A DNA stretch of 64,000 nt from an uncultured delta proteobacterium (GTDB taxonomy: Bacteria; Desulfobacterota; Syntrophia; Syntrophales; Smithellaceae): positions 75,271-139,270 of the forward strand of contig CAIVQG010000051.1 of NCBI GenBank assembly GCA_903907985.1. The letters run 5' to 3'. The translations under genes and the position numbers were made by a program. The notes under the pieces are model-generated. The model was given only the letters and a program-made list of their open reading frames with translations, searched no databases and was not told where the DNA came from. Shown here one piece after another: positions 18,014-40,850 of the stretch; positions within the stretch are counted from its first letter, which is position 1; each line of letters starts with the position of its first letter.

Positions 18014-18052
18014 GACTGAAGACTGAAGGCCGAAGACGGAAGGCTTTCAGGT
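18014..18052 (+). repeat. Dispersed CTGAAG-type repeat, copy 1
   Basis: Contains GACTGAAGACTGAAGGC and ends GACGGAAGGCTTTCAGG. It lies between the mutL start and the end of the toxin gene. It shares the core of copies at 18725, 34743, 35740, 38010 and 38408. Its last 17 bases match copy 2 at all but one position, in the same orientation, so the toxin-antitoxin pair lies between two direct copies. Confidence 0.8.
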
Positions 18053-34742: not shown

Positions 34743-34779
34743 CCTTCAGCCTTCAGCCCTTGGCCTTCAGTCTTTCAAA
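34743..34779 (-). repeat. Dispersed CTGAAG-type repeat, copy 3
   Basis: On the minus strand it reads GACTGAAGGCC, a short spacer, then GGCTGAAGGCTGAAGG. It overlaps the 3' end of the isomerase-like gene and provides that gene's stop (GAC TGA AGG). Confidence 0.7.
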
Positions 34780-35739: not shown

Positions 35740-35802
35740 ATTTAGACTGAAGACTGAAGGCTAAATACCATTTATACCTTCAGTCTTCGGCCTTCAGTCT
35801 AA
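35740..35802. repeat. Gene-less inverted pair of the CTGAAG-type repeat (copy 4)
   Basis: The left arm TTAGACTGAAGACTGAAGGC and the right arm, reverse-complemented TTAGACTGAAGGCCGAAGACTGAAGG, face each other across about 15 bp. The left arm differs by one base from the arm at 38010. A GGTATTTAG/CTAAATACC inverted repeat also brackets the left arm. It ends about 20 bp before rsfS. It looks like the same terminal repeats that enclose the four-helix-bundle gene at 38044, but without a gene between. Confidence 0.75.
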
Positions 35803-37966: not shown

Positions 37967-37996
37967 AAAAAACGCTCCGGTTATGGGGCGTTTTTT
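37967..37996 (+). terminator. Rho-independent terminator after dksA
   Basis: AAAAAACGCTCC-GGTTAT-GGGGCGTTTTTT: a 12-base arm on each side with one weak pair, ending in T6. It closes the rsfS-dksA run just before the inverted-repeat cassette. Confidence 0.9.
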
Positions 37997-38009: not shown

Positions 38010-38036
38010 TTAGGCTGAAGACTGAAGGCTTTTAGG
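38010..38036 (+). repeat. CTGAAG-type repeat, left end of the four-helix-bundle cassette
   Basis: TAGGCTGAAGACTGAAGGCT (starting at 38011) matches the reverse complement of the right end (38408-38435) at 20 of 21 positions when one more T is included. The trailing TTTTAGGG doubles as the ribosome binding site of the enclosed gene. Confidence 0.85.
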
Positions 38037-38043
38037 GAAAAAC

Positions 38044-38400
38044 ATGCGTGATCATACAAAACTTAAAGCATTTGATATGGCTGACGAGTTAGCAGTACTA
38101 GTCTACCAAGTAACTTCAGTGTTTCCCAAAGAGGAGTTGTACGGGCTTACTTCTCAAATGAGGCGTTCAGCGGTTTACGTCCCTTCCAATATTGTAGAGG
38201 GTTGTGCACGCGATAGCCAAGCAGATTACCTTCGATTTCTCATTATAGCCTTCGGATCGTTAAGGGAACTGCATTATCAACTCGATTTGTCCAAGCGTTT
38301 AGGATTCTTAGGTGATCAAAATTCACGCCCAGTTGAAACAAAAATTATAGAAACGGAGAAGATATTGAATGGCTTGATTCGGGCCTTGCGCGATGCCTGA
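38044..38400 (+). CDS. Four-helix-bundle protein of the 23S rRNA intervening-sequence (IVS/S23) family
   Basis: 118 residues. FDMADELAVLVYQVTSVFPKEELYGLTSQMRRSAVYVPSNIVEGCARDSQADYLRFLIIAFGSLRELHYQLDLSKRLGF is a complete match to the small helical family first seen in 23S rRNA intervening sequences and related to the bAvd accessory protein of diversity-generating retroelements. The molecular function of most members is unknown; bAvd binds nucleic acid. Here it lies not in an rRNA gene but between the dksA terminator and priA, enclosed by inverted CTGAAG repeats 7 bp upstream of its start and 8 bp after its stop, so the unit looks like a discrete 426-bp cassette. Confidence 0.9.
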   Translation: MRDHTKLKAFDMADELAVLVYQVTSVFPKEELYGLTSQMRRSAVYVPSNIVEGCARDSQADYLRFLIIAFGSLRELHYQLDLSKRLGFLGDQNSRPVETKIIETEKILNGLIRALRDA

Positions 38401-38407
38401 TATACTT

Positions 38408-38435
38408 ATCCTTCAGCCTTCAGTCTTCAACCTAA
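38408..38435 (-). repeat. CTGAAG-type repeat, right end of the four-helix-bundle cassette
   Basis: The reverse complement reads TTAGGTTGAAGACTGAAGGC and continues TGAAGGAT, one mismatch in 21 against the left end. It ends 6 bp before the priA ATG, leaving no visible Shine-Dalgarno sequence for priA. Confidence 0.85.
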
Positions 38436-38441
38436 ACTCCT

Positions 38442-40850
38442 ATGTTTATAAACGTAGCCTTAAATATTCCCGCCGAAAAACTCTTCACTTATGAAGTCCC
38501 GATTAATTTACAAAATCAGATTGCCGTTGGCAAACGTGTTTTTGTCTCCTTCGGCCGGAGAAAGCGTACCGGCTTTATTGTCGAAGTAAATAATTCCTGC
38601 AGTCTGGAAAAAGTAAAATCTATCAGCGAAATCCTTGATGAAGAACCGCTTTTCGGCGAACAGGACCTCCGTTTTTATTCATGGATCGCTAATTATTTTA
38701 TGTATCCGCTGGGTAAAGCACTGGCTGAAATTATCCCTGCCGGTTCGGAAAAGAAAGACTTTCTCTGGATCACACCCTTGCCTTGGATAAATGAAATTCC
38801 CCTTCCGCCGGCACAAAACAAACTTCTGGAATTATTACAGCAATATCCGCAGGGAATTGCTCTGACCGCCCTTACCAAAATCAGCGGGTTAAAAAATATT
38901 TCACCAGTAATATGCAGCCTGCAATTAGCCGGGCTTCTGCAAATTACGGAAAAACAAAACAAACAACTGGCCTTACGCCGGGAAAAATTTGCGACACTCA
39001 AGAATAGTAAAATTGCCGAAGCAAAACTAACAAGAAAACAAGAAGAGCTCATTGCCTTTATGCAGGGAAAAGGGAATATGGCTCTTCCTGATTTAATTCA
39101 ACAGTCCGGTACATCCAGTGCAATCATTAAAAGACTTCAGGAGAAAGGAATGATTGAGCTCTCCGAAACCGAAAAAATTCGCACTGCTGTTATGGAACCT
39201 TTGACATACGAAAACGCAATAAGATTTACTTTAAATTCTCAGCAACAAAAGGCGTTTCTGGAGATTTCTGCTCAGCTGGGAAATAATATTTTTACACCCA
39301 TATTACTGCATGGCGTTACCGGCAGCGGGAAAACCGAAGTCTATTTAAATGCCATTGCCCAGGCACTGGAAAATAACGGCAGTGCAATTTATCTGGTTCC
39401 AGAAATAGCTTTAACCCCGCAGTTAATTTCGCGTATTCAAGGGCGCTTCGACCCCGAGCAGATTGCCATCATGCATAGCGGCATCGCCGAAGCGATCCGC
39501 TACGACCAGTGGCGGCAAATCAAACGCGGCCAGATAAAATTGGTAATCGGCGCCCGTTCCGCCCTTTTTGCGCCGCTGCCGAATTTAAAACTGATTATTG
39601 TCGATGAAGAACACGATGCTTCCTACAAGCAGGATGACCGTCTTTGTTACCATGGGCGTGACCTGGCGGTTGTGAAAGCAAAGATCGACTGCGCTGTCGT
39701 AGTGCTGGGATCAGCCACACCGGGTGTCCGATCGTACTACAATGCCCTCAATAAAAAATATTCCCATCTGGAAATATCAAAGCGGGTGTTGGATAAACCG
39801 CTGCCCGAAATTGAAATTATCGACATGAAAGCGCAGCTGGAAGAACAAGGAAAAGCCCCGATTATTTCCGCTGCGCTAATTGCCGCAATCGAGATGACGC
39901 TTCTGAAAAAAGAACAGGTTTTACTTTTTCTCAACAAGCGCGGTTTTGACACATTTCTGGTTTGTGCGGATTGCGGCTATAATTTTCGCTGCCCCAATTG
40001 TGCCGTATCTCTGAAGAACCATGCTGCCGAAGGTGTTATCAAATGCCATTATTGCAACTACACACAAAAAGCGCTGCCGGTTTGCCCCACATGTCGCGGT
40101 AACCACATTTTGAGCTACGGTGTCGGCACACAAAAACTGGAAGCGGAAATAACAAAACTTTTCCCTGATTCCCACATTTGCCGGATGGATTCGGACACAA
40201 CGAAGGCCAAAGGAGCTCAGGAAAAAATCCTGCAGAAACTCTGGCAGCGGGAAATTGACATTCTGGTGGGCACACAGATGATTACCAAGGGACATGATTT
40301 CCCCTTCATAACCCTGGTCGGTGTTATCTCGGCTGATACATCTTTGAATATGCCTGATTTCCGCGCCGGTGAAAGAACTTTTCAGCAGCTGACGCAGGTT
40401 GCCGGACGCGGCGGACGCGGCAGCACCCCCGGCAAAGTAATCATTCAGACTTTTAATCCACAGCATTACGCTTTAAAGCATGTTCGGAATCACGACTATC
40501 AATCTTTTTATGCAGAAGAAATCGCTTTTCGTAAAGACTTGAAATATCCACCCTTCGGCCGGATTATTAATCTGCGCTTATCAGCAACAAATAAGGAAAC
40601 TCTTCTGGAGCAGGCAAAACTGCTGGGAAAGATGGCAAAAAAACTGCGTGCGCAATTCGGGAACAAAGTAGGAATTATGGGTCCTACGGAATCGCCGCTC
40701 GCGAAAATAAAAGGCCGCTATCGCTGGCAAATGCTGCTCAAAAGCGAGAATGCCCAAGCCCTGCATCAGCTTGCCCGGGAGCTTCTGCAAAAAATGGAAA
40801 AAAGCACGGTGAAGGTTACGGTTGACGTTGATCCGGAAAATTTTATGTGA
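38442..40850 (+). CDS. priA: Primosomal protein N' (replication restart helicase)
   Basis: 802 residues. The N-terminal 3'-DNA-binding domain begins MFINVALNIPAEKLFTYEVP. Walker A GVTGSGKTEVYL at about 290, DEEHDASYKQ at about 387, ARSALFAPL, and GSATPGVRSY are helicase motifs. The zinc cysteines (CADCGYNFRCPNC ... CHYCNYTQKALPVCPTC) lie at about 507-551, then GTQMITKGHDFP and QLTQVAGRGGRG. It restarts stalled replication forks. No obvious ribosome binding site precedes the ATG because the repeat of the upstream cassette ends there. Confidence 0.97.
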   Translation: MFINVALNIPAEKLFTYEVPINLQNQIAVGKRVFVSFGRRKRTGFIVEVNNSCSLEKVKSISEILDEEPLFGEQDLRFYSWIANYFMYPLGKALAEIIPAGSEKKDFLWITPLPWINEIPLPPAQNKLLELLQQYPQGIALTALTKISGLKNISPVICSLQLAGLLQITEKQNKQLALRREKFATLKNSKIAEAKLTRKQEELIAFMQGKGNMALPDLIQQSGTSSAIIKRLQEKGMIELSETEKIRTAVMEPLTYENAIRFTLNSQQQKAFLEISAQLGNNIFTPILLHGVTGSGKTEVYLNAIAQALENNGSAIYLVPEIALTPQLISRIQGRFDPEQIAIMHSGIAEAIRYDQWRQIKRGQIKLVIGARSALFAPLPNLKLIIVDEEHDASYKQDDRLCYHGRDLAVVKAKIDCAVVVLGSATPGVRSYYNALNKKYSHLEISKRVLDKPLPEIEIIDMKAQLEEQGKAPIISAALIAAIEMTLLKKEQVLLFLNKRGFDTFLVCADCGYNFRCPNCAVSLKNHAAEGVIKCHYCNYTQKALPVCPTCRGNHILSYGVGTQKLEAEITKLFPDSHICRMDSDTTKAKGAQEKILQKLWQREIDILVGTQMITKGHDFPFITLVGVISADTSLNMPDFRAGERTFQQLTQVAGRGGRGSTPGKVIIQTFNPQHYALKHVRNHDYQSFYAEEIAFRKDLKYPPFGRIINLRLSATNKETLLEQAKLLGKMAKKLRAQFGNKVGIMGPTESPLAKIKGRYRWQMLLKSENAQALHQLARELLQKMEKSTVKVTVDVDPENFM

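Follow-up and report, generated by a model that had tools for sequence, protein, structure and literature searches.

What is the small gene unit that lies between dksA and priA, and is it mobile? The question was raised by a sequence-only reading of the window, i.e., the whole 64-kb stretch of DNA that was analysed, which proposed a possible mobile cassette consisting of a 21-bp inverted repeat that encloses only the gene of a small helical protein. This protein belongs to the IVP/S23 family, for which structures have been solved and whose members are scattered among rRNA inserts, Avd-like proteins and CRISPR-linked genes. We conclude that the unit is probably an old and immobile representative of IVP cassettes, which form a widespread family and the complete members of which would be moved in trans by an IS66-type transposase.

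Anatomy of the unit between dksA and priA

The unit and its upstream context comprise the following features:

37967..37996, + strand: dksA terminator stem, conserved in relatives; upstream limit of the insertion interval (context)
38010..38030, + strand: left arm, TTAG plus two CTGAAGR heptads (inverted pair search, heptad structure)
38044..38400, + strand: IVP/S23 four-helix-bundle gene, 118 aa (ORF, profile matches, dN/dS)
38408..38435, - strand: right arm, inverted heptad array ending CCTAA; within it, 38415-38435 forms the inverted pair with the left arm

The proposed repeat was confirmed: the two 21-nt arms, spaced 384 nt, are complementary at 20/21 positions (95%), and they enclose a single intact ORF and no transposase. 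The placement between the dksA terminator and priA was equally correct, with priA starting at 38442, downstream of the right arm. Each arm consists of two tandem copies of the heptad CTGAAGR framed by TAGR/YCTA, and single heptads are also present just outside the arms. Since the arms are tandem 7-bp arrays, a unique 21-bp transposon end is ruled out. A promoter-like site for the IVP gene was sought on the + strand, and none was found.

The encoded protein matches PF05635 (4.6e-32) and TIGR02436 (3.5e-32), its score of 110.9 bits exceeding the respective curated cut-offs of 33.8 and 24, and its gene is the only PF05635 gene in the genome. The closest solved structure is XCC0516 (2GSC, 6e-25), which work cited in PMC4990558 describes as a homopentamer of four-helix bundles. 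The motif GxxRxxxSxxxNxxE has been reported for the IVP family (PMC3936711). In the window protein, R41, N49 and E52 are present, and the serine position, which is Ser in relatives, is occupied by Tyr45 (codon 38176-38178). Membership of neither the DGR Avd equivalog family (22.2 bits versus a cut-off of 80) nor bAvd (21.5 versus 40) was indicated. The gene is under purifying selection: dN/dS was 0.30 in comparison with the related genome G005 and 0.13-0.30 in close pairs; in distant pairs synonymous sites were saturated, with dN of 0.16-0.18.

Heptad arrays around IVP genes

Within the window, CTGAAGACTGAAGG has 8 matches at up to 2 mismatches, versus 0.26 expected, and the CTGAAGR-class repeat has 47 matches genome-wide at up to 1 mismatch, versus 1 for the reversed control. 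By eye, these 47 matches fall at about 31 places, only one of which has an IVP gene. The copies are mostly intergenic hairpins with short and unrelated cores. The matching gene-less repeat pair that had been noticed near 35740 does exist, and the repeat search returned two further arrays in the window:

35743..35801, no strand assigned: gene-less heptad hairpin upstream of rsfS, shared with G005
34743..34771, - strand: degenerate heptad array, single orientation only
18016..18043, + strand: direct heptad array without inverted partner

The unit could be a product of chance or local slippage, with heptad arrays being common and the gene merely caught between two of them. In many bacterial genomes, heptads have been noted to outnumber all other longer simple repeats, and slippage has been proposed (PMC4679880, PMC4692102); most heptad copies in this genome lack a gene. 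The surroundings of IVP genes elsewhere speak against this explanation. In the flanks of PF05635 genes within the family, the lag-7 match was 0.46 and 0.47, versus 0.29 in control spacers, and lags 14 and 21 were also raised. On cyanobacterial plasmids, both flanks were heptad-positive in 6/11 IVP genes versus 0/80 other genes (Fisher 7e-7). These tests use simple periodicity thresholds that miss short or 8-bp arrays, and several of the group statistics ignore phylogeny. Moreover, the heptad is element specific and tends to be common to both arms: of the 61 elements whose windows were periodic on either side of the gene, 25 had their own partner arm in first rank, and at the median 1.7% of other elements equaled the score of the own partner. 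Given also the target duplications of complete relatives (see below), we regard chance or slippage as highly improbable. As a possible refutation, the sequence-only reading had named repeats that flank unrelated genes as often as this one, and the answer is divided: about 30 of the 31 places in this genome lack the gene, whereas a position within heptad arrays is far commoner for IVP genes than for others.

Inverted 7-bp arrays enclose PF05635 genes across Desulfobacterota and on cyanobacterial plasmids, and the heptad varies by element (GGTTCAA, TAAGATT, GGCGATA, CGTGAAG, ATAGTGA, CGTAAAT and others). No description of this IVP-heptad architecture turned up in the open-licence papers that we searched. 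On a Nostoc edaphicum plasmid, a second IVP gene (L435, 36463-36849) is flanked by inverted 8-bp units (GAGGAGCA). Some recurrent settings were also seen: an IVP subfamily characterized by MRFEDLDVWKRA recurs in polysaccharide gene clusters (L099, L104, L136, L143 and L125; family f1), where its neighbors appear to be an acetyltransferase-like gene on one side and a DegT-type aminotransferase gene on the other, and the subfamily MGKGYKDLLVW adjoins an rfbA-like gene.

Three IVP genes on cyanobacterial plasmids (L424, L431 and L433) lie within cas operons, the first two in clear inverted heptad arrays, and the arrangement cas6-IVP-cas4 of Pseudanabaena and Anabaena is among the heptad-flanked plasmid IVP genes. 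Linkage of the IVP family to CRISPR has been reported (PMC3936711, PMC10910872). Since CRISPR-embedded IVP genes are found inside heptad arrays, this link may partly reflect hitchhiking, and the cassette layout suggests that some of these four-helix-bundle genes, as in cas6-IVP-cas4, are passengers.

Heptad class tracks protein lineage, mean heptad similarity rising from 0.48 at 30-40% protein identity to 0.67 above 70% (Mantel 5/2000). The protein could accordingly be a dedicated factor of the arrays, recognizing the heptad of its own lineage and spreading or keeping arrays in trans, by analogy with RAYT and REP; gene-less arrays would then be nonautonomous copies and IS66-type ends only an occasional vehicle. 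Using a hand-compiled list of the genomes with each IVP subfamily, and without regard to phylogeny, we observed that CTGAAGR arrays are enriched where a genome has the MRDH subfamily (P = 2.4e-4; P = 0.03 after approximate subtraction of gene-adjacent arrays) but not where it has the MRFEDL subfamily; for AAGGTTC arrays the pattern was the reverse (P = 0.0018; 0.03 after approximate subtraction). Arrays are, moreover, common in the window genome despite the absence of IS66. However, three genomes (G033, G040 and G050) have 30-41 CTGAAGR array matches and no matching IVP gene, and common descent of gene and ends in a cassette explains the lineage signal equally well. We therefore consider a dedicated factor of this kind unlikely. 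On a broader and tentative reading, somewhat doubtful in our estimation, IVP/S23 proteins in general would be sequence-specific partners of inverted heptad arrays, each recognizing the 7-bp class of its own lineage, which would be spread or maintained genome-wide. If so, a single element superfamily would unite rRNA intervening sequences with the four-helix genes found in CRISPR loci and with many of the dispersed heptads of bacteria. The cassette layout makes such recognition directly testable.

IVP genes between codirectional host genes were oriented like these genes in 51 cases and opposite in 1 (80-locus sample). To judge from this bias, retention would depend in part on expression through read-through from the host genes. 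It also favors an RNA-level explanation, in which the unit acts like an rRNA intervening sequence, with arms pairing in the operon transcript and RNase III cutting there, so that the insertion is tolerated. In Coxiella, the arms of the 23S intervening sequence form a stem cut by RNase III (PMC4990558), and the arms of the present unit pair in the predicted fold. Selection for RNA pairing left no signal in G.U asymmetry, since arm mismatches showed no sense-strand preference for wobble pairs (214 G.U versus 214 A.C); unusual folding of the whole unit was likewise dismissed, as it folds no better than shuffled sequences (z = -1.2). Two plasmid IVP genes (L427 and L425) run opposite to both neighbors, counter to the orientation bias, which also argues against the RNA-level explanation; we hold it to be quite improbable. 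The gene in L427 lies between ribonucleotide reductase subunit genes.

Complete relatives and the history of the window copy

In a scan of the genome collection, both ends GTAACTACTCAGGT / ACCTGAGTAGTTAC were present outside the heptads in 15 of the best 80 relatives of the window protein. Elements of about 450 bp with such ends and 8-bp target duplications are among the close relatives. Flank identity peaked solely at a length of 8 (0.66 versus 0.27-0.40 at other lengths). Perfect 8-bp duplications were found at L183, L186, L187 and L214 and 7/8 duplications at L198, L221 and L239; the same ends, together with 7/8 duplications, also bound some heptad hairpins that lack a gene. The ISBst12-group element ISDge4 of the IS66 family has terminal inverted repeats GTGACTACTCAGCA/GTAACTGCTCAGCA and makes an 8-bp repeat (PMC12898284), as do IS66 elements in general (PMC11946415). 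Furthermore, two genomes of the order (G008 and G057) contain IS66 remnants that terminate in the end sequence of the complete relatives. Because of their ISBst12-like ends and 8-bp duplications, the complete relatives can be read as nonautonomous IS66-type insertion cassettes. Since the layout is shared across several phyla, in part with element ends and duplications, the gene appears to travel as a small cassette.

This mode of movement has limits. In the bacterial family of the window, an exact copy of a GTAACTACTCAGGT-type end occurs in G008 only. The genome of the window contains neither an IS66 DDE transposase nor a GTAACTACTCAGGT site, and the resemblance of its other array copies to this end is limited to AGGT. 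Around the other IVP subfamilies sampled in the family and phylum, no GTAACTACTCAGGT-type ends were found, although heptad arrays are present; thus, IS66-type movement cannot account for all cases.

The window unit aligns with complete elements via both arms, on the right to CCTAAAnnCCT and on the left to TAGR, and the outer part of these elements is missing from it. Fittingly, outer GTAACTACTCAGG-type terminal repeats are absent from the window copy; no target duplication, which the sequence-only reading had proposed to look for, is visible there either. The unit is intact at the dksA-priA site of the window genome (G000) and of G005, the latter with one extra heptad per arm. In G006 it occupies the same site with an internally deleted, dead gene. 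The fourth genus member, G004, has only a small TAGGGGCCACCGGCCTA palindrome in this spacer, and the unit is missing from the dksA-priA spacer in the other family genomes that we examined, 25 in number and all from outside the genus, which bears on the question whether orthologous loci lack it. Since 3/4 genus members carry the unit and the 25 other spacers do not, it represents an insertion when compared with other genera, yet one that is inherited within the genus. A different palindrome (CTAAATCAAAGATGATATCGAGGCGGCAAGG...) was observed in the dksA-priA spacer of other genera (L158, L156 and L179, in G001, G028 and G015, respectively); given these different palindromes, the interval may tolerate insertions.

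The gene-less hairpin at 35743-35801 had been taken as support for mobility, an argument that falls away: it is common to G005 at the same position, and a related element occurs in G046. As both the unit and this hairpin are shared at position, neither shows recent movement, and a recent hop of either is ruled out. The idea of a mobile cassette therefore has to be split. It stands for the family, which is repeat bounded and has complete relatives with target duplications; it fails for this copy, which holds the same position in 3/4 genus members and has neither duplication nor outer repeats and which looks old and fixed.

Beyond this site, the IVP gene subfamily of the window occupies at least 5 different sites within one bacterial family. 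At one of these, adjacent to a dinB-like gene, the form with the gene occurs in G031 and a gene-less heptad hairpin in the window genome.

In the scenario that we favor, that of an old cassette now immobile, each cassette consists of an S23/IVP four-helix-bundle gene framed by a 7-bp repeat in inverted arrays. ISBst12-group (IS66-family) repeats GTAACTACTCAGGT cap these arrays in complete members, with 8-bp target duplications on the outside. As their ends indicate, such members would move as nonautonomous cassettes, an ISBst12-type transposase being provided in trans. Most cassettes lie between codirectional genes, closely preceding the start codon of the following gene, and host transcription probably covers the IVP gene. 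The window copy would have inserted before the genus radiated, lost its outer ends and been inherited vertically since, and related copies would decay into gene-less hairpins. The protein ring may recognize its own heptad array, as the lineage-specific heptads and class-specific array enrichment would suggest. IVP genes in inverted heptad arrays, some of them in complete cassettes, would offer one explanation for the scattered sightings of the family.

Comparison with known systems

Like the mobile insertion cassettes (MICs), a named class of elements, and MITEs of the ISBst12 group (IS66), the complete relatives have ISBst12-like ends, 8-bp duplications and a passenger gene and lack a transposase. 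Unlike these elements, IVP cassettes have inverted heptad arrays inside their ends and a constant passenger family, IVP, and the window copy lacks outer ends and duplication.

By analogy, the heptad hairpins also resemble REP/RAYT systems, being dispersed intergenic palindromes at about 31 places with few candidate partner genes, but the repeats are different and the protein is unrelated. The DGR accessory protein Avd has a homologous fold and gives weak HMM matches, the window protein scoring far under the Avd and bAvd cut-offs.

Dispersed heptads of Xanthomonas (GGGAATC), of Beggiatoaceae (TAACTGA) and of Geobacter metallireducens (paired arrays) are similarly intergenic, tandem and often arranged as inverted pairs; 70-75 inverted heptad pairs are given for Xanthomonas. 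In the portions of these reports that we consulted, the repeats are not linked to IVP genes or to transposable ends.

Finally, those 23S rRNA intervening sequences of Leptospira and Coxiella that contain an S23/IVP ORF share with the unit the protein family, the inverted-repeat bounds and a similar size, that of Coxiella measuring 428 nt and having tandem heptamers before the S23 gene (PMC4990558). In contrast to these insertions in an rRNA helix, the window unit does not lie in an rRNA gene and is placed between two protein-coding genes, dksA and priA.
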